From the NCBI GenBank assembly GCA_001512965.1, contig LFRW01000041.1, positions 1 through 53,309 of the forward strand: a stretch of 53,309 nucleotides of DNA, given 5' to 3'. The translations under genes were made by a program, and so were the position numbers. Every line of letters starts with the position of its first letter. The first letter of the stretch is position 1. A model generated the notes under the pieces. It was not told the DNA's origin. It ran no database searches and saw only the letters and a program-made list of their open reading frames with translations. Of the stretch, positions 4,284 through 48,119 are shown one piece after another. Origin of the DNA: Methanomicrobia archaeon DTU008. Its GTDB lineage: Archaea > Thermoplasmatota > Thermoplasmata > Methanomassiliicoccales > Methanomassiliicoccaceae.

Positions 4284-5315
4284 TCAGCGGCGTATCAGGG
4301 AAAATTGCTCACTGGAGTAACGCATCATCCTGATATATTCTACCTCGCAATCCAGTGTGAGTCCACAACCTGCGGCGAGTATGTATTTTCGGTCGATCAT
4401 CTCGTTCATACACCTGACCGACTGCTTGACCACTTCTATTGGAGGCCCGCCAGTTAACGCTCCTTCAGGGGGCAGATTGCCAATGATTATGGTGTCTGGG
4501 AACAGATCGGACACGGCCGATAGGCTGACCGGAGCATCCACTGATAGCATGTCCGCCTCAACCGAGGACATTTCTCGAAAGATATCGAACGAATCCCCAC
4601 AGATATGCCACATGACATCCCTCCCCCTTGACCCGATCCGATGGGCGAGAGCGACGTTGGAGGACAGCACGAATTTTCGGAACAGATCGGCGCTAAGGAA
4701 TGAGCCTGACGTGGTGGGATCGGCCACCACTATGGCGTCAGGATCCAAGAGGTCGATCTCCTCGTGGTAACTATTCAGCACCTCATTGGCATATCGCATC
4801 ATTTCACGAACGGCCCCTGGCTCGATAATGAGGTCGAAGAAAAATCTCTCCAGACCCCTTAGTTCTCCCAAGAGGGTGAATGGTCCTGACATGGTTGCGT
4901 AGAGATAGTGGGTACGACCGATCCTCTTATCGATCTCCTCGGCCGCGGCAAGTGAGGAGACAAATCGATGGTCCTCTCGTGGATCGGGCACTCCAAGTCT
5001 GTCTATATCACTAAGCTCTTCTATGACCGGTGAGATCGTGGGCATCAAGCCATAGTCTGGAACCTGCGCCTTCGAGCCACATGCCTCGGCAGGGCATAGA
5101 AAGTCCGCGATCATCTCCATACCATCGAAACCACACAGCTGTCCCATTTCTATCTGGGCATGGGCGGCCAAGGCCGGGTTGTCTATGGCTTCTTGATTTG
5201 TAATTCCATGCAATGCGGTTGCTAAAAACCCGGAGAACGGTGGGAAGACCGGTACCCTCTCCACCCCCTCGCCCTCAAAGAGTGCCCTGACAAGCTCTTT
5301 GGAGGAAGAGACCAT
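4284..5315 (-). CDS. Uroporphyrinogen decarboxylase-family (MtaA/MtbA-like) corrinoid:CoM methyltransferase homologue
   Basis: A 343-residue TIM-barrel protein of the family that includes MtaA and MtbA, which move methyl groups from corrinoid proteins to coenzyme M, as well as true uroporphyrinogen decarboxylases. The zinc-binding pattern is visible: WHICGD at about residue 237 (His and Cys) and AAGCG near residue 314 (second Cys). The sequence ADPTTSGSFLS matches the family's ADPTAS region. The usual TPxEN after the last Cys is replaced by an unrelated stretch, so the substrate may be unusual. No corrinoid protein or substrate methyltransferase is adjacent. It diverges from a paralogue at 5453, with about 137 bases of shared promoter region. 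Confidence 0.75.
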   Translation of the reverse strand: MVSSSKELVRALFEGEGVERVPVFPPFSGFLATALHGITNQEAIDNPALAAHAQIEMGQLCGFDGMEMIADFLCPAEACGSKAQVPDYGLMPTISPVIEELSDIDRLGVPDPREDHRFVSSLAAAEEIDKRIGRTHYLYATMSGPFTLLGELRGLERFFFDLIIEPGAVREMMRYANEVLNSYHEEIDLLDPDAIVVADPTTSGSFLSADLFRKFVLSSNVALAHRIGSRGRDVMWHICGDSFDIFREMSSVEADMLSVDAPVSLSAVSDLFPDTIIIGNLPPEGALTGGPPIEVVKQSVRCMNEMIDRKYILAAGCGLTLDCEVEYIRMMRYSSEQFSLIRR

Positions 5316-5452
5316 GAAGAAACGGCAGCCAAATTAACATTATCAATCTTTTTATGTAAATATCTGAAAAATGAGTTGTGTGGTCTATTTGTAATACAAT
5401 AGTAATCATAATATCTTACAAATTCTATCCCGCTTCATCCCTGAGGGATACT

Positions 5453-6496
5453 ATGGTTACTAATCGAGAAAGGATGAGAGCGGCCTTCGCAATGGATGAG
5501 ATAGATCGACCGGCGGTGATCGGCAAGACCGTGCTGACGCCGGATACATTCCAGAGGGCCGGTGCGGACCCGGTTGGTTTGTTCGACCGTCCAAAGGATC
5601 TGGTCGCATTGGCAAAAGCGGCCGTAGAGCTTTACGGTTTCGAGAACTGGGAGATATTCCAGATATGGTCACACACCGAGTTCCTTGGCGTCGAGATCGA
5701 GTACAATGCTCCCAATCCCTATGTCAGATCCTCGCCCTATACGTTGGGTGGGGAGTTCGAAGCGCCCGATATGGATGCGTTCCTGAAGGATCCCAAGATC
5801 CAGAACGTGATCGAAAGGTATCGACTGCTCCGCAAGGCTGCTGGCAAGGACGAGGCCATCAGCGGCATCACCAGCTGGGGCCCGCTGACCATGGCCGGCC
5901 ACCTGGTGGGCACGGAGAATCTAATGTTTGGCATCGCCACCGATCCGGACGAGGTCAAGCGCGTGATCCAGTTTTGCGCCGAGTTCAACGCTGAAGCGTA
6001 CAAGATGCTGCTCAGCCCAGGGAATGTAGACATGCTCGACTACTTGGCCGTGGCCGATCCAACCGCTTCGGGAGATATGCTCTCCACAGAGATGTTCGTC
6101 GAGTATGCCCTGCCGTACAATCAGATCGAGCAAAAGGCCATCCGATCCACCGGCATGCTGACCGAACTCCACATTTGCGGGGATACCACCGATCATCTGC
6201 CGTTCATAGCTCAGACCGGGGCAAACGCCATTAGCATTGAACAGAAGGTCGATCCCTACAAGGCCTACAAGCTCGTGGGAGATAAGGTCGCATTATGCGG
6301 CAACGTCGGACCCATCATGCCCCTGCTGGAGGGCACCGTTGACGACGTAAGGCGTGAGACTCAGAAGTGCATCGATGCTGGGTTCAGAATAATCTCTCCT
6401 GGTTGTTCTATCGCCGCCGCATCGCCAGCAGAGAACCTGAGGGCAATGGCCGAGACGGTAAAGCAGTATGGCAGGCACATCCCTAGAGGTGTCTGA
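5453..6496 (+). CDS. MtaA/MtbA-like methylcobamide:CoM methyltransferase homologue
   Basis: A 347-residue protein, closer to MtbA/MtaA than its divergent neighbour. The start at 5453 is preceded by GAGGG at a spacing of six bases. A frame extending to 5378 exists, but its AT-rich upstream part is not protein-like. Key features are ADPTASGDMLS near residue 206, HICGD near 240 (zinc His and Cys), GNVGP, and SPGCS with AxxENLRAM near 325 (third ligand). The enzymes use methylated corrinoid protein and coenzyme M in methylotrophic methanogenesis. Which corrinoid partner is served cannot be told here. The ribosome binding site can pair within ATCCC-TGA-GGGAT (5437-5449). Confidence 0.8.
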   Translation: MVTNRERMRAAFAMDEIDRPAVIGKTVLTPDTFQRAGADPVGLFDRPKDLVALAKAAVELYGFENWEIFQIWSHTEFLGVEIEYNAPNPYVRSSPYTLGGEFEAPDMDAFLKDPKIQNVIERYRLLRKAAGKDEAISGITSWGPLTMAGHLVGTENLMFGIATDPDEVKRVIQFCAEFNAEAYKMLLSPGNVDMLDYLAVADPTASGDMLSTEMFVEYALPYNQIEQKAIRSTGMLTELHICGDTTDHLPFIAQTGANAISIEQKVDPYKAYKLVGDKVALCGNVGPIMPLLEGTVDDVRRETQKCIDAGFRIISPGCSIAAASPAENLRAMAETVKQYGRHIPRGV

Positions 6497-6594: not shown

Positions 6595-8193
6595 TCAATC
6601 ACATGGGTCTTGCTGGTCCACGGAGAGGGCGGGCAGCTCGACCACGAACCTCGCCCCTTGCGTATGATCTCCGGTTACCCGGTCCTCGACCCACACCACG
6701 CCGCCATACTCGTCGACCAGCCGCTTGACGAGATATAGCCCCAGACCGCGGCTGATGGGCTTGGTCAGACCCATCAGGGAGCGGTCGAAGATGGCGGCCT
6801 TCTTCTCGTCCGGCACGCCGGGCCCGTCGTCCTCCACCTCCACCCGGGCCCACTCTTGGCCACCTCTGACGACGCTGCTCAGTCTCACGACCACGTTCAC
6901 TTCATGGCCGGAATGTTTGATGGCATTGCTCATGATGTTGGAGAACACGACCCCAAGGAGGTCTGTCGCCATCACGCGGCAGCAGCATTCCTGATGCAGT
7001 GCGATCGAGACATCCTTGCCAGGCAATACGCGGTAGTCACGTATGACCTGCTGGAGGATCTTCTCCACCTCCATCGGCCTGTCCCTCTCCCTGCCCGACT
7101 CAACCCTCTGCAGGTCCCAGACGTTGGCCAGCAGCTCGGTGCTGTTCCTAAGCTCTTCCAGCGGCTTGATGATAAGCCTTCGGTCCTGTTCATTCAGCTG
7201 AAGAACGTCCTCGGCCAGTTGCAGGTATCCCATGGCGGCGGCGTTGTAGTTGCTGATGTCATGCGTCAGCAGGTCCACGTACATCTCCGACCTGGACCTG
7301 GCTTCTTCCAGGTCCCTCTCCAGTCTCTTCCGTGATGTGATGTCGATTATCGTGCTCACCGCGCCGATTATCCCTCCGCCGAGATCTCTTATCGGAACAG
7401 CGGACGCTAGCAGGGTGCCTGGAGAACCGTCGAAACGCTGGATCTCTATCTCTTGATCGATGATGCTTTCTCCCCTGAAGGCGCGGGCTATGGGCCACTC
7501 ATCCCTCTTCAAACGCTCCTTCGATCCCGCCAGGCGGCCGATGTATCTATCCAGCCTTCCCTCCTCGGAGGCACCGTCCATCATCCAGATCTGTCGCCAT
7601 CGTCTGTTCGTTCCTATGACCAGTCCGTCGGAGTCTATCAGGATGATGCCCACTGGCAGAGAGTCGAAGATGGCCTGCAAGCGGGCGCGGTCTTCCTCGA
7701 TCCGCCTCTGAGACCTCTCACGCATGGTCACGTCCACGACCAGGCCGTCGATCCACTCGATACGGCTGTCCTGGAAGCGGCTGGCGATAAGCGTGACGAG
7801 CAGACTGACGGGCCTCCCGTCCTTCCTGCTCGCCACCACTCTCATGTTCTTGATGGCGCCATCCCTCTCCAGCTGAGCCCTGATCCTATTCCTCCTCAGG
7901 AGAGGGGGGCAGAGCTCCGAGGGGTCGTGGGATAGCAGTTCCTCCACGTTGCTGTACCCCAATATCCTGGCCATGGCCGCATTGGCCTGAACGAACCTGA
8001 CGCCATCCTCCAGGGATACGCGGAATATGCCTACGTCGATGTTCTCCACGAGGGCCTTGTATCTCATCTCGCTCTCCGCCAGCGCACGGTTGGCACGTTC
8101 CAGCTCGGAGATGCGTTCTTGTAGCTGGGGGTAGTAGCTCTTCCTCTGACCGCCAGCCCCCAGGCCTATGATGCCCTCCCTCATGTCAGCCAT
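6595..8193 (-). CDS. PAS-PAS sensor histidine kinase
   Basis: A 532-residue cytosolic kinase. A short coiled coil (about 20-45) leads into PAS1 (about 45-155) and PAS2 (about 170-285). The dimerisation/phosphoacceptor helix carries LLTHDISNYN near residue 315. The ATPase domain shows the N box (NIMSNAIKHS), G1 (EDDGPGVP) and G2 (RGLGLYLVKRL). There are no membrane segments, so the signal is internal. I chose ATG 8193, which has GGCGGGA upstream and sits 13 bases after the dehydrogenase stop. ATGs at 8223 and 8238 would overlap that gene. The tight coupling to the dehydrogenase suggests it senses that protein's ligand or state. There is no response regulator beside it. Confidence 0.9.
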   Translation of the reverse strand: MADMREGIIGLGAGGQRKSYYPQLQERISELERANRALAESEMRYKALVENIDVGIFRVSLEDGVRFVQANAAMARILGYSNVEELLSHDPSELCPPLLRRNRIRAQLERDGAIKNMRVVASRKDGRPVSLLVTLIASRFQDSRIEWIDGLVVDVTMRERSQRRIEEDRARLQAIFDSLPVGIILIDSDGLVIGTNRRWRQIWMMDGASEEGRLDRYIGRLAGSKERLKRDEWPIARAFRGESIIDQEIEIQRFDGSPGTLLASAVPIRDLGGGIIGAVSTIIDITSRKRLERDLEEARSRSEMYVDLLTHDISNYNAAAMGYLQLAEDVLQLNEQDRRLIIKPLEELRNSTELLANVWDLQRVESGRERDRPMEVEKILQQVIRDYRVLPGKDVSIALHQECCCRVMATDLLGVVFSNIMSNAIKHSGHEVNVVVRLSSVVRGGQEWARVEVEDDGPGVPDEKKAAIFDRSLMGLTKPISRGLGLYLVKRLVDEYGGVVWVEDRVTGDHTQGARFVVELPALSVDQQDPCD

Positions 8194-8206
8194 GGTCTGG
8201 TCCCGC

Positions 8207-9331
8207 CTACATCGCTCGCTCATACAGCTCCTCGACATCCTTCCTACCTGCAGGCCTCGGGTTGGTGGCCAGACATGGGTCGTGGATAGCGTTCTCGCTC
8301 AGCCGGTGAATGTCGCCTCTCCTCACGCCGATGCTCTCAAGACCGCCGTCGGCCCCCAGATCCCTGCGAAGTTCGCCGAGGAGGTCGATCAGCGGTCCCT
8401 TTCCTCTCGCAGAGCCGAACATTGCCACTTCCAGTCGGAGATATCTCTCCTCGGCACAGGGATGGTTGAACTCGATCACATGCTCAAGCAGCGCACAGGC
8501 GGCCTGCTGATACATGGCATCATGGAACCCTCCGATGCTGTGGGCCATGGCATGGAGCGGTCCCAGCCCGGCGTTGGAGAATGCAAGGCCGGCATACGTG
8601 GAGGCAAGCATCATCTGCTCCCTCGCTCCCATATCCTTCGGGTCCTGCCTCGCCGACGGGAGGTTCTCGGCGATGAGCTTGACGGCCTCCAGCGCGAAGA
8701 GGTAGGTGAGCGGAGATGACGCATTGGAGATATATGATTCGAACGCATGCGCCAGCGCATCCATGCCGGTATAGGTAGTGAGGTCGGCGTCCATGGTCAC
8801 GGTGGTCGCCGGATCGATCACCGTCAGGTCCGGTACGAGGAGCCGGTTGATGATGGTCATCTTCTTCCTTCCCTCCCTGTCGGTGATGACGGCGAAGGGC
8901 GACACGTCGGCAGAGGACCCTGCCGTGGTAAGCACGCATATGAGAGGCGGGCCTGGTACGCGAACACGGTCCATCCCCTCGAACCACCTGACATCCATCC
9001 CGCTGGCTGCCATGATGCCGATGGCCTTCGCGCAATCGATGGGGCTGCCGCCACCCACTGCCACGACGAGGTCGCAAGCATCGTCCAGATAACGTCGCGC
9101 TCCCCGTACCACGTCCTCCACGCATGGGTTGGCCGACGCACGGTCGTAAGTGGACAGGTCCAAGCCGCTATTCCTCAACGACGCCTCCACAGACCCGGTC
9201 CATCCCGCTTCCCGCACCCCTGCATCGCTTACGACAAGCACCCTCCGGGGGGAGAGGTTCGACGCATGCTGCCCTACCAGTTCGATGGAGCCGCTGCCGA
9301 AGATAATCTCGGGCGAGATGAACTTCCTCAT
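8207..9331 (-). CDS. Iron-containing alcohol dehydrogenase family protein with altered metal site
   Basis: A 374-residue group III dehydrogenase. The NAD-binding GGGSPIDCAK motif is near residue 95 and the TTAGSSADVS region follows. Two metal ligands are in GMDALAHAFE (Asp and His, four apart). The third is the first His of LHAMAH. The fourth ligand should lie ten residues after the second His of that motif, as His in PHG, but here the position is Tyr (AMYQQAA). Enzyme activity is therefore doubtful. Start 9331 is chosen by family N-terminus (MRKFISPEIIFGSGS). The kinase gene follows 13 bases downstream. The pair recalls ErcA-type dehydrogenases linked to sensor kinases. Confidence 0.85.
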   Translation of the reverse strand: MRKFISPEIIFGSGSIELVGQHASNLSPRRVLVVSDAGVREAGWTGSVEASLRNSGLDLSTYDRASANPCVEDVVRGARRYLDDACDLVVAVGGGSPIDCAKAIGIMAASGMDVRWFEGMDRVRVPGPPLICVLTTAGSSADVSPFAVITDREGRKKMTIINRLLVPDLTVIDPATTVTMDADLTTYTGMDALAHAFESYISNASSPLTYLFALEAVKLIAENLPSARQDPKDMGAREQMMLASTYAGLAFSNAGLGPLHAMAHSIGGFHDAMYQQAACALLEHVIEFNHPCAEERYLRLEVAMFGSARGKGPLIDLLGELRRDLGADGGLESIGVRRGDIHRLSENAIHDPCLATNPRPAGRKDVEELYERAM

Positions 9332-43698: not shown

Positions 43699-43876
43699 TA
43701 TAGCGTAAAATGTATCGATAACCGATGATGGTTTTTTTACTTATTACGAGTTCCAACAGCATGATTGTTGGATACCGAGCGTGTAAGGTGTGGAAATGCA
43801 CTTGAACGATCACCTCCATCAGTGACCGTTCCTTGACTGTCGTCCCTTAATGTACAATGGACACGGGGGCCAACGG

Positions 43877-45193
43877 ATGAGCGGGTGCGAAGAAGGTTTC
43901 CGCAAGGACTGTAAAGGCGGGAAGGCAGAGATCGATATGACCGATGACGCGGTACTGCTGGGCAATGCGGTGGTTCGCTCAATGAACACCGCGATAGTCG
44001 CGACGGCGTTGGATGGCACCGTCTCCCTCTGGAACCGGGGTGCGCAGCTAACACTGGGCTACCCGGAGAAGGAGATGATGGGAAGGCCCATACAGTCGCT
44101 CTTTGATCCGGGCCATGGGGCCAAGGTCGCCGAGGTCTTGGAAAAGATCCAGCAGGCAGGATCCGCCCCCACGTTAGTGGCGAACATGCGCACCCGGCAT
44201 GGGGAGACTGCACGCGTCTCCATAACAGCATCTCCTCTTCTTGACGGCCACGGGAACACGACAGGCGTCTCGTTCATCATCAGGGACCTGAGCTCAGCGA
44301 TAGAGGAGAGGATCCTGTCCGAAAAATATAGGCGGTTCATCGATATCGTGAACCAGCTGCCTTATTACCTGATACTGCTGACCCCCGACTATCGCATCGT
44401 GTTCGCCAATAGGGCGTTCATCGAGCAGTTCGGGGCACCTGGCAACAAGCGCTGCTATGAACATCTGTTCGGCTCCTCCAGGCCCTGCGAGAACTGCGAA
44501 TCGTTCCAAGTGTTGAAGACCAACGAGCCGCACGTATGGGACTGGCCCGCGCCCAATGGCCGATTCTATGCCGTTTATGATTTTCCATTCATCGACGAGG
44601 ACGGGACCTCTCTCATCATGGAGTCTGGCATAGATATAACGGAGCAGAAGCTCGCCGATGAGGCGCTACGCAAGGCGGGCGCATACAACCGAAGCCTCAT
44701 AGAGGCCAGCCTGGACCCCATGGTGACGATCGGCCCGGATGGGAAGATAACAGATGCCAATACCGCCACCGCGAAGGTCACGGGTGTAAGCCAGAAGGAT
44801 CTCATAGGCACGGACTTCTCCGACTACTTCACGGATCCGGACAGGGCGAGGATAGGCTACGAAACAGTGTTCCGAGAGGGACTGGTCCGCGACTATGAGC
44901 TGGAGATACGCCGAACCGATGGGCATATAACGCCTGTGCTGTACAACGCATCGGTTTACCGCGACGATTCCGGTAATATAATCGGTGTGTTCGCGGCGGC
45001 CCGTGACATAACGGCAAGAAAGCTCTTCGAGAACGAGCTCAAGGAGCAGAGGGAAAGGGAGATGGAACGACTTCTGGAACTAGAAAAATTCCAGAGGCTT
45101 ACCGTGGGGCGTGAGCTCAAGATGGTGGAGCTCAAGAAGGAGATCGCCGCGCTCAAGAAGGAGATAGAGGCCCTCCAGGGCAAGAGGAGATGA
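43877..45193 (+). CDS. Triple-PAS sensor protein without kinase domain
   Basis: A 438-residue cytosolic protein. Three PAS domains are at about 20-145, 150-260 and 265-385. PAS2 carries RCYEHLFGSSRPCENC, a cysteine pattern (C then CxxC) seen in PAS domains that may bind metal or respond to redox. PAS3 has TIGPDGKITDANTAT. The C-terminus is a long Lys/Glu coiled coil (about 390-438). There is no histidine kinase or output domain. The next gene, one base after the stop, encodes a kinase that begins with a coiled coil and no sensor domain. ATG 43877 has GGGGG seven bases upstream; 43850 and 43937 are alternatives. Confidence 0.82.
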   Translation: MSGCEEGFRKDCKGGKAEIDMTDDAVLLGNAVVRSMNTAIVATALDGTVSLWNRGAQLTLGYPEKEMMGRPIQSLFDPGHGAKVAEVLEKIQQAGSAPTLVANMRTRHGETARVSITASPLLDGHGNTTGVSFIIRDLSSAIEERILSEKYRRFIDIVNQLPYYLILLTPDYRIVFANRAFIEQFGAPGNKRCYEHLFGSSRPCENCESFQVLKTNEPHVWDWPAPNGRFYAVYDFPFIDEDGTSLIMESGIDITEQKLADEALRKAGAYNRSLIEASLDPMVTIGPDGKITDANTATAKVTGVSQKDLIGTDFSDYFTDPDRARIGYETVFREGLVRDYELEIRRTDGHITPVLYNASVYRDDSGNIIGVFAAARDITARKLFENELKEQREREMERLLELEKFQRLTVGRELKMVELKKEIAALKKEIEALQGKRR

Positions 45194-45194
45194 A

Positions 45195-46151
45195 ATGTCC
45201 TCAGGGCTCATCCCCTATCAGGAAAAAACATTGCTCCAGGAACGTCTGGAACTGTTGAACAAGGAGCATCAGGGGACGTTACGGGCTCTGAACAGCATCA
45301 TCCATGAGAGCAGGGAGCTCCGGAAGCTCAACATCGCCGCCCTGAACATATTGGATGATCTGGACGAGGAGAAGAGACGCTCTCTCGACACCCAACGTGC
45401 GCTATTGAACATGCTGGAGGACATCGAGGCGGAGCGAGCGGAAGTGGAGAGGACACGGGCGGTGCTGGAGGCCGTGAACAAGGAACTGGAGGCATTCTCG
45501 TACTCCGTGTCTCACGATCTGCGCGCTCCCCTGCGGGCAATCAGCGGATTCTCTCGCGCCCTCTCCGAGGATTGCGCTGACTCATTGAGCGAAGAGGGGA
45601 AGCGATATCTGGAGCTGATACAGGAAAACACCAAGCGCATGGCCTCCCTCATCGACGGCCTGTTGGCGTTCTCTCGCCTGGGCCGGCAGAGGATGAGCAC
45701 CTTGGAGATCGACATGGAGGACATGTTCGACGAGGTCTTTGACGACCTGATGACTCAGGAACCGGACCGGGACATAGACTTCATCCGCAGCCCACTGCCT
45801 CCGATCCAGGGAGACCCACTGATGATCCGGCAGGTCCTGGTGAACCTGTTGTCCAACGCATTGAAGTTCACCCGAGGCCGCAAAAGGGCGGTGGTGGAGG
45901 TCGGTTACCTATCCGATGTGGAGGGCGGAACCTACTACGTCAAGGACAACGGCGCAGGCTTTGACATGCAGTATGCAGACAGGCTCTTCGGCGTGTTCGA
46001 GAGGTTGCATCCGACAGAAGAGTTCGAAGGGAACGGAGTAGGCCTGGCCTTGGTGGAGCGCATCATAGCCCGCCATGGCGGAAAGGTGTGGGCAACAAGC
46101 GTCCAGGGGGAGGGATCCACCTTCTTCTTTACGATATCTGGCTCGGGGTGA
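45195..46151 (+). CDS. Coiled-coil histidine kinase lacking a sensor domain
   Basis: A 318-residue kinase. Residues 8-95 are coiled coil. The phosphoacceptor motif is FSYSVSHDLRAPLRAISGFSRAL near residue 108. The ATPase contains QVLVNLLSNALKFT (N box), VKDNGAGFDMQYADRLFGVFERLH (G1 and F box) and GVGLALVERIIARHGG (G2). This is the bacteriophytochrome-type HisKA group. Its gene starts one base after the PAS protein, and the response regulator gene begins four bases after its stop. It probably relies on the PAS protein for signal input. Confidence 0.9.
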   Translation: MSSGLIPYQEKTLLQERLELLNKEHQGTLRALNSIIHESRELRKLNIAALNILDDLDEEKRRSLDTQRALLNMLEDIEAERAEVERTRAVLEAVNKELEAFSYSVSHDLRAPLRAISGFSRALSEDCADSLSEEGKRYLELIQENTKRMASLIDGLLAFSRLGRQRMSTLEIDMEDMFDEVFDDLMTQEPDRDIDFIRSPLPPIQGDPLMIRQVLVNLLSNALKFTRGRKRAVVEVGYLSDVEGGTYYVKDNGAGFDMQYADRLFGVFERLHPTEEFEGNGVGLALVERIIARHGGKVWATSVQGEGSTFFFTISGSG

Positions 46152-46155
46152 CTTG

Positions 46156-46614
46156 ATGGCAGGTAATGAGGACATGATATTGCTAGTAGAGGACGATCCC
46201 AATGATGCTGAACTGATCATGAGGGCATTCAGGAGAGGGAAGCTGTCTACCAACGTGGTCCACCTGAGGGACGGAGAGGAGGCGGTGAGATATGTGGCGG
46301 GTGAGCACGTCAGGCAGCATGAGAAATGGTCCCCCCCCCCGAAGGTAATCCTTCTGGACTTGAAATTGCCCAAGCTGAACGGGATCGAGGTGCTGCGGAG
46401 GCTGAAGGCCAATGAGCGCACCAAGAACGTCCCTGTCGTCATCTTGACCTCTTCGCAAGAGGATAGCGACATCGAGAAGGCATACGCTCTTGGTGTGAAC
46501 AGCTACGTCACGAAACCCATCGAATTCGACGCGTTCTCGCAGGCCATGATGAATCTTGGATCCTACTGGTTACGGTTGAACAAGACGCAGAGGACGTCAG
46601 AGGGTGGAGCATAA
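46156..46614 (+). CDS. Single-domain response regulator (Rcp1-type)
   Basis: A 152-residue REC protein. LLVEDDPNDAELIMRAFRR (about 9-27) supplies the acidic pocket. VILLDLKLPKLNGIEVLRRL has the phospho-Asp (about 65). VVILTSSQEDSDIEKAY carries the conserved Ser/Thr, and VNSYVTKPIEF the Lys (about 119). There is no output domain, so it passes phosphate on or acts by protein contact. ATG 46156 is preferred; the open frame extends back into the kinase gene to 46075. Confidence 0.92.
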   Translation: MAGNEDMILLVEDDPNDAELIMRAFRRGKLSTNVVHLRDGEEAVRYVAGEHVRQHEKWSPPPKVILLDLKLPKLNGIEVLRRLKANERTKNVPVVILTSSQEDSDIEKAYALGVNSYVTKPIEFDAFSQAMMNLGSYWLRLNKTQRTSEGGA

Positions 46615-48119
46615 TGTTGGAACGCGATCTCCGCATACTCATATTGGAGGACAACCGATCGGACTATGAGCTTATCAGACGTGAGCTCGTACGAGGCGGC
46701 CTGAGGGCGGAGATCGAATGGGCCAATGATCGGACCTCGTTCACGAGGGCACTGGACCGCATCACACCTGATATCGCCCTTCTTGATCATTCGCTGCCAG
46801 GCTTCGACGGCATCAGTGCGATGAAGGCATTGCGCGAGCGGTTCCCAGACGTACCTGCCATAATAGTGTCTGGAGCCATAGGAGAGGAGCTGGCCATAGA
46901 GGCGATGAAGGCCGGAGCGACCGACTACGTCCTCAAGAACAACCTGGAGCGCCTGGTGCCCGTCACGCGTAGGGCGTTGCAAGAGGCTGAGCAGCTCCAG
47001 GCAAGGAGGAGGGCCGAGAAGGAGCTGGAGGAGAGCAGGAAACGATATGAGCTGTTGTTCTCGTCCAGCAGCGAAGGCATCTCCATGCAGGAGATGATCC
47101 ACGATGAGAACGGCGTACCAGTGGACTACCGAATCATCAACATAAATCCTGCCTTTGAACGTATAACGGGCCTGTCGAAGGAGGACCTGATCGGCACCTG
47201 CGCATCGTCCAAGTACGGATATCCTCCCCATCTGGATCGGTTCAGGAGGGTCATGGAGTCCGGCGAATCGATATCGTTCGAGAGCACCGAGATCGCACCT
47301 GGCAAGGTCCTGCTCATATCAGCGTTCCCCTTCGAGCTGAAAAGGTTCGCAACCCTTGCCGTGGACATCACCTGTCTCAAGGAATTGGAGGCGCAGCTCA
47401 AGGAGAGGGCGGAGGAACTGGCTCGCTCCAACGCCGAGCTTCAAGAGTTCGCCTACGTGGCCTCGCACGATCTGCAAGAGCCGCTTAGGATGGTCATCGG
47501 ATATCTGTCCCTGTTGCAGAACCGGTACGGCGACAAGCTGGACGATCAGGCGAAGGAATACATCAACTTCGCAGTGGATGGAGCTGCTAGGGCGCGGGAC
47601 CTCGTAAAGGATCTGCTGGAATATAGCCGGGTGGGTTTTTCCCGGAAGCCTCTGGAGGAGGCCGACATGGAGCGGCTGTTCGATCTGGCATGCATCAACC
47701 TGAGAGGACAGATCAAGGAGGAGGGAGCCCTTATCGAACGAGGCCCCTTGCCGAGGCTCATCGTCGACGAGGTCCAGATGGTAATGCTTCTCCAAAATCT
47801 CCTCAGCAACGCGATAAAGTTCCACGGGCCCCGAACGCCAAAGGCAAGCATCAGCTGCCGCGAGCGTGGGGACGAATGGGTGTTCTGCGTGCAGGACAAT
47901 GGTATCGGCATCGAGCCTCAGGACCAGGAGAGGATCTTCCAGTTGTTCCAGAGGCTGCATAGCGTCAGCGAATATTCAGGGACCGGGATCGGTCTGGCGA
48001 TTTGCAAGAAGATCGTGGAGCGACATGGCGGCAGGATATGGGTGGAATCGCAACCAGGCGAGGGCTCGGCCTTCTTCTTCTCCTTGCCAAAGAACGGAAC
48101 CGACGTTGACCATCATTGA
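46614..48119 (+). CDS. REC-PAS hybrid histidine kinase
   Basis: A 501-residue protein. REC at about 5-125 has ILEDNRSDYELIRRELV and ALLDHSLPGFDG (phospho-Asp near 55). A PAS domain follows at about 140-260. A coiled coil leads to HisKA with FAYVASHDLQEPLRMVIGYLSLL (His near 287). The ATPase has LLQNLLSNAIKFHG, QDNGIGIEPQDQERIF and GTGIGLAICKKIVERHGG. The ATG overlaps the stop of the response regulator gene (TAATG). It can receive phosphate through its REC domain or be its own kinase, so the operon can form a multi-step relay. Confidence 0.9.
   Translation: MLERDLRILILEDNRSDYELIRRELVRGGLRAEIEWANDRTSFTRALDRITPDIALLDHSLPGFDGISAMKALRERFPDVPAIIVSGAIGEELAIEAMKAGATDYVLKNNLERLVPVTRRALQEAEQLQARRRAEKELEESRKRYELLFSSSSEGISMQEMIHDENGVPVDYRIININPAFERITGLSKEDLIGTCASSKYGYPPHLDRFRRVMESGESISFESTEIAPGKVLLISAFPFELKRFATLAVDITCLKELEAQLKERAEELARSNAELQEFAYVASHDLQEPLRMVIGYLSLLQNRYGDKLDDQAKEYINFAVDGAARARDLVKDLLEYSRVGFSRKPLEEADMERLFDLACINLRGQIKEEGALIERGPLPRLIVDEVQMVMLLQNLLSNAIKFHGPRTPKASISCRERGDEWVFCVQDNGIGIEPQDQERIFQLFQRLHSVSEYSGTGIGLAICKKIVERHGGRIWVESQPGEGSAFFFSLPKNGTDVDHH

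Follow-up and report, generated by a model that had tools for sequence, protein, structure and literature searches.

A conserved N-terminal motif marks the histidine kinase encoded beside an ErcA-like dehydrogenase in a methanogenic archaeon

Can an alcohol dehydrogenase with an altered metal site act as a sensor for the histidine kinase encoded next to it? The question is raised by a locus in a contig of the archaeon DTU008, whose full stretch of 53,309 nucleotides is referred to here as the window. A sequence-only reading had proposed an ErcA-like sensor pair with a degenerate site, in which the kinase gene starts 13 bases downstream of the dehydrogenase gene. The 13-nt gap, between positions 8207 and 8193, was confirmed, and the locus carries the following features:

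8207..9331, minus strand: ErcA-like iron-type alcohol dehydrogenase, 374 aa (ATG at 9331 to stop at 8207)
6595..8193, minus strand: soluble PAS-PAS histidine kinase, 532 aa (ATG at 8193 to stop at 6595)
8089..8181, minus strand: 31-residue N-terminal kinase motif, REGIIGLGAGGQRKSYYPQLQERISELERAN, a candidate ErcA-docking element
8504..8518, minus strand: codons of dehydrogenase residues 272-276 (AMYQQ), where the family reads x-x-H-G-x
8194..8223, minus strand: putative alternative upstream kinase start, ATG at ~8223 (MSERC...)

The alternative in-frame ATG lies ~30 nt upstream of the kinase start given above; with it, the kinase gene would begin ~17 nt inside the end of the dehydrogenase gene. 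Relatives have a similar overlapping start, reading MSGRC or MSERC and then MADxR, and such an overlap suggests translational coupling. The host genome (1.76 Mb, 99% complete) groups with Methanomassiliicoccus-like MAGs, and, having McrA and MtaB, the host is a methylotrophic methanogen with a gene for methanol use.

The dehydrogenase belongs to the iron-containing alcohol dehydrogenase superfamily (PF00465, 152.6 bits for a cut-off of 31.3; PF25137, 174.5 bits for a cut-off of 27), of which it is the sole member found in the host genome. Its AlphaFold2 model (mean pLDDT 93.7) is closest among solved structures to the NAD-dependent methanol dehydrogenase of Bacillus methanolicus (TM-score 0.97), with Zymomonas ADH2 and FucO also close. 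These three share its fold (TM-score 0.95-0.97) at 32-37% identity, but they are enzymes with an intact Asp-His-His-His site, and we know of no partner kinase tag for any of them. Alignment with FucO bore out the claim that Asp, His and the HxxxH motif are kept while the fourth ligand is Tyr, within AMYQQAA: Asp191 and His195 (DALAH) and His260 and His264 (HAMAH) are present, so that the ligands Asp191, His195 and His260 are retained, and Tyr274 (codon TAT, within DAMYQQAA) aligns with FucO His277. The protein thus departs from the Asp-His-His-His metal site of the superfamily, and its NAD motif GGGSPxD is intact. Tyrosine can itself coordinate iron, so that a lost ligand is a reading of this alignment and not a fact.

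Among NCBIfam models, the best match is ErcA (NF041833) at 477 bits, the next family scoring 286. Because 477 bits falls below the curated cut-off of 550, we call the protein ErcA-like and not ErcA proper, although several bacterial and archaeal ErcA encoded beside tagged partners also miss that cut-off. In a maximum-likelihood tree that also included 14 other iron-type dehydrogenases from the order, 20 archaeal and bacterial ErcA-type proteins, including that of the window, formed one clade (support 99/99).

The kinase comprises the N-terminal motif, two PAS domains, a phosphoacceptor site (HDISN, residues 311-315) and an ATPase domain (HATPase_c, 76 bits), and so has both the phosphoacceptor histidine and the ATPase domain of a histidine kinase. 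A domain search found no receiver domain (Response_reg) in it, no response regulator lies beside the pair, and the NahK/ErcS hybrid-kinase model (NF041832) gave 56 bits against a cut-off of 400. The host genome encodes seven receiver domains, two of them within the window at 46177-46955. Proteins with PAS, kinase and receiver domains, clustered at 43850-48119 of the window, could include partners of orphan kinases like this one. On its other side, the kinase gene adjoins two divergent URO-D/MtaA-like methyltransferase genes (4284-6496); both scored under the MtaA and MtbA cut-offs and were not recognized next to the pair in relatives, and we set them aside. An acetate-CoA ligase lies within ~10 kb of the pair in two genera. 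Since the two genera have different paralogues of it there, and many genomes without ErcA also encode the ligase, its linkage was discarded as a clue to the target and is a weak lead only.

The pair is like ErcA-ErcS of Pseudomonas aeruginosa (YiaY-PP_2683 in P. putida), in which an iron-type alcohol dehydrogenase is co-cistronic with a histidine kinase and both proteins are regulators. In Pseudomonas, ErcA/YiaY and the co-cistronic kinase are both required for induction by short-chain alcohols, and AlphaFold3 predicts that the P. putida proteins make contact via their N-terminal domains (PMC12997753). Whether the kinase senses directly or is redox-coupled with the dehydrogenase is stated to be unsettled for Pseudomonas (PMC12997753; PMC10308882). 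The two systems differ in that ErcS is a hybrid kinase within a PQQ-alcohol oxidation regulon, whereas the window kinase has neither a receiver domain nor a local regulator, and in the Tyr that replaces His at the fourth ligand of the window protein, unlike in the P. aeruginosa system.

The actinobacterial MnoSR operon provides a second parallel. Its kinase gene adjoins a putative 1,3-propanediol dehydrogenase gene and it controls methanol dehydrogenase, and the corresponding two-component system of mycobacteria governs methanol dehydrogenase and growth on alcohols (PMC11303327). Here too an iron-type dehydrogenase (Fe-ADH), a kinase (MnoS, with its regulator MnoR) and alcohol regulation come together. 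In Tsukamurella the gene order is mdo-moxR-VWA-ADH-kinase-regulator, and the N-terminus of the kinase is related (LTGLRSGKSSYYPQ). Unlike the window kinase, MnoS is a GAF/NarL-type kinase with its regulator next door and a partly changed motif, and the metal site is intact in the Tsukamurella and Mycolicibacterium dehydrogenases. By analogy with the Pseudomonas and mycobacterial systems, the window pair can be read as a putative soluble alcohol or NAD(H) sensor that would control its kinase via the N-terminal tag. On a plasmid of Rhodococcus sp. ZPP (L053:6962-8610), the four ligand positions of an ErcA-like protein hold Glu, Asn, Gln and Tyr. Behind it come a kinase remnant in which no domain is recognizable and an intact response regulator; this locus looks like the decay of an MnoSR-type operon.

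We then considered how widely the pair occurs. ErcA was found in 13 of the order's 147 genomes; among 390 genomes sampled in the phylum, none of those outside the order has it. A tagged partner is present in 11 of the 13 archaeal ErcA genomes, and the same gene order recurs in the window's genus, in other Methanomassiliicoccales, in a sample of the Bacteroidota and in one clostridium. Adjacency to a sensor kinase, as expected of ErcA, is therefore both present in the window and conserved in relatives. The model score, the 99/99 clade and this gene order uphold the proposal of an ErcA-like pair and, at the level of sequence, indicate an archaeal counterpart to the ErcA-kinase sensor module known from bacteria.

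The exceptions are two genomes (G017 and G019) with an ErcA but no motif and no kinase gene at the locus, which shows that ErcA can exist independently of the kinase. In G018, ErcA has one receiver-domain gene upstream in divergent orientation (L046:8238-8591), and the tagged partner is without an ATPase domain; both this receiver gene and the kinase are missing from the syntenic loci of G017 and G019, which retain ErcA alone. Two other genomes carry two tandem ErcA genes ahead of one kinase (G008, L019:749-3259; G012, L021:8924-11434) where G010 has one, which suggests mixed oligomers or two ligands.

Conservation within the kinase is highest in its N-terminal motif, with the consensus IIGLGxxSxRKSYYPxLQ...L or, in its longer form, R..IIGLG..S.RKSYYPxLQ..I.EL. 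A search with a 31-position profile recovered a single copy of the motif (61-75 bits) from each of 11 genomes in the order, always directly behind ErcA, while nothing in the other 388 archaeal genomes searched exceeded 18.3 bits. The association with ErcA (11/13 genomes versus 0/134) gave a Fisher p value of 7e-15, which overstates the case because the genomes are related. Among 72,556 plasmid records, the only one with a detectable motif had it beside ErcA. In a blind test that covered 396 Bacteroidota genomes, the profile matched three new ones. All three encode a bona fide ErcA directly upstream (584, 604 and 590 bits), with the motif beginning 61-67 nt past the ErcA stop, compared with 61 nt in most archaeal pairs; across phyla the spacing is mostly 58-62 nt. 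Within this search, thin in its sampling of bacteria, the motif was found only beside ErcA. We found no earlier literature on it.

The output domains behind the motif differ, and the tagged proteins share little else: 9 of the 12 residues invariant among 12 partner proteins fall in the motif (residues 8-31). Tagged partners include the PAS-PAS-kinase of the window, PAS-kinases in G010 and G134, a PAS-PAS-HisKA protein without ATPase domain in G018, a PAS-kinase-receiver protein in L013 (Bacteroidota), and HisKA_2 and multi-PAS kinases in L090 and L091. In Acetoanaerobium noterae, the tagged protein behind ErcA (L050:8127-9599) is no histidine kinase but carries GGDEF and HD domains, so that ErcA may also feed cyclic-di-GMP signaling. 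In the predicted structure of the window kinase, residues 1-19 have a pLDDT of ~40 (<50) and lead into a long helix, and the motif is predicted to be disordered. A segment that is the most conserved in the protein and yet disordered on its own resembles a docking peptide. Most likely, judging from these conservation patterns, the motif is a docking tag through which ErcA controls its partner, and docking on ErcA would fit the N-terminal contact that AlphaFold3 predicts for the P. putida pair (PMC12997753).

Building on the gene pair, the tag, its occurrence only beside ErcA and the purifying selection described below, we propose how docking, signal and direction of control may fit together. 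The dehydrogenase-like protein would be a soluble receptor for NAD(H) and a short-chain alcohol, which in most relatives probably also turns the alcohol over. The disordered N-terminal tag of the kinase would dock on it, occupancy or turnover of the dehydrogenase would change kinase activity, and phosphate would pass to a response regulator encoded elsewhere. The signal in this methanogen would likely be methanol, the natural guess, or another short-chain alcohol, and Tyr274 would leave the complex intact. We give this reading, with the dehydrogenase as a docked receptor controlling the kinase in response to a likely alcohol signal, a probability of about three in four.

The main challenge to it is that the module works in relatives but decays in this lineage, Tyr274 having broken the sensor and the genes heading for loss. 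All other archaeal ErcA members keep Asp-His-His-His, and among archaea Tyr is found in the window genome alone. The proposed degenerate site is thus no feature of the module: the genus, other Methanomassiliicoccales and bacteria share the pair but not the Tyr. Orthologues with His do exist, yet it is the same kinase, not catabolic genes, that they are linked to. In the bacterial L013 protein, Asn replaces the metal-site Asp. The region around Tyr274 and its counterpart in G002 align nucleotide by nucleotide, with no indel and many differing positions, and we therefore rejected a frameshift or a single base-calling error as its source.

Further points agree with decay. The fourth-ligand loop drifts throughout the genus (HGDAGG, HGETGG, HGVAAC, HGEGAS, HGEVNA), the window's YQQAAC being the extreme, and the N of HGxxN is missing in several members. 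The family has ErcA in a patchy distribution (9 of 15 genomes), and the Rhodococcus homologue with altered ligands adjoins a broken kinase. The reading frame of the G001 ErcA (L014:2994-4148) shifts close to the C-terminus, and the lost end can be read in another frame, which is either an assembly error or early decay. Against decay, both reading frames are open, and dN/dS of the window dehydrogenase is 0.24-0.31 against the three relatives with unsaturated synonymous sites, similar to the relatives. This is near the value of the kinase against the same relatives (0.27-0.29) and ~3 times that of the neighboring acetate-CoA ligase. The open frames and dN/dS also speak against a pseudogene. The kinase motif and catalytic boxes are intact, and besides Tyr274 the dehydrogenase has only three private substitutions at otherwise invariant sites. 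By these comparisons, Tyr274 is a lineage-specific change and no family trait, in a gene still under purifying selection, and we hold ongoing decay to be rather unlikely. In the window species, Tyr274 probably lowers or abolishes alcohol oxidation and leaves the complex intact.

One result from P. putida counts against a sensor role: mutation of YiaY His281 impairs induction and signaling, as relayed by a review (PMC12997753). Matched by length and numbering, His281 is probably the residue that is Tyr274 in the window, which would predict a defective sensor there. If the two correspond, the window protein is a sensor that either works in an altered way or is failing.

An unlikely variant is that the module of this species senses the NAD+/NADH redox state with no alcohol involved. 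The intact nucleotide-binding residues beside an altered metal and alcohol site fit this idea; however, His277 of FucO is also close to NAD, and its replacement may affect the nucleotide too. Very improbable is an ordinary catabolic or fermentative alcohol dehydrogenase with the kinase as a mere neighbor: most ErcA homologues do retain the full set of metal ligands along with the NAD motif, and in two archaeal genomes the gene does stand without a kinase, but pair and tag are conserved together across phyla at near-constant spacing, the window copy is without one of the usual ligands, and its genome holds no other superfamily member.

A broader idea is tentative and somewhat doubtful: bacteria and archaea could use ErcA generally as an exchangeable soluble receptor, which differing outputs (histidine kinases, hybrid kinases, a GGDEF-HD protein) read through a short disordered docking tag, and in this methanogen it could be a pseudoenzyme whose signal is independent of the normal metal site.

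The literature on alcohol use in Pseudomonas leaves open how ErcA/YiaY passes its signal to the kinase (PMC12997753), and the new part of our result is the link between dehydrogenase and kinase via the tag. Common to the partners found, in two domains of life and with several output types, the 31-residue tag offers a short, mutable and testable contact site. The archaeal Tyr variant is a natural experiment on whether signaling needs metal-dependent catalysis. Should methanol be what the pair senses, methanogenesis from methanol would have a candidate regulator in it; since nearly every genome of the family has MtaB while the module is missing from most genomes of the order, such control would not be essential. 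Finally, base composition shifts strongly between close relatives: within one genus, third-codon-position GC of three genes of G004 (L017) is 0.32-0.43, compared with 0.76-0.93 in G000-G003 and 0.58-0.62 in G005.
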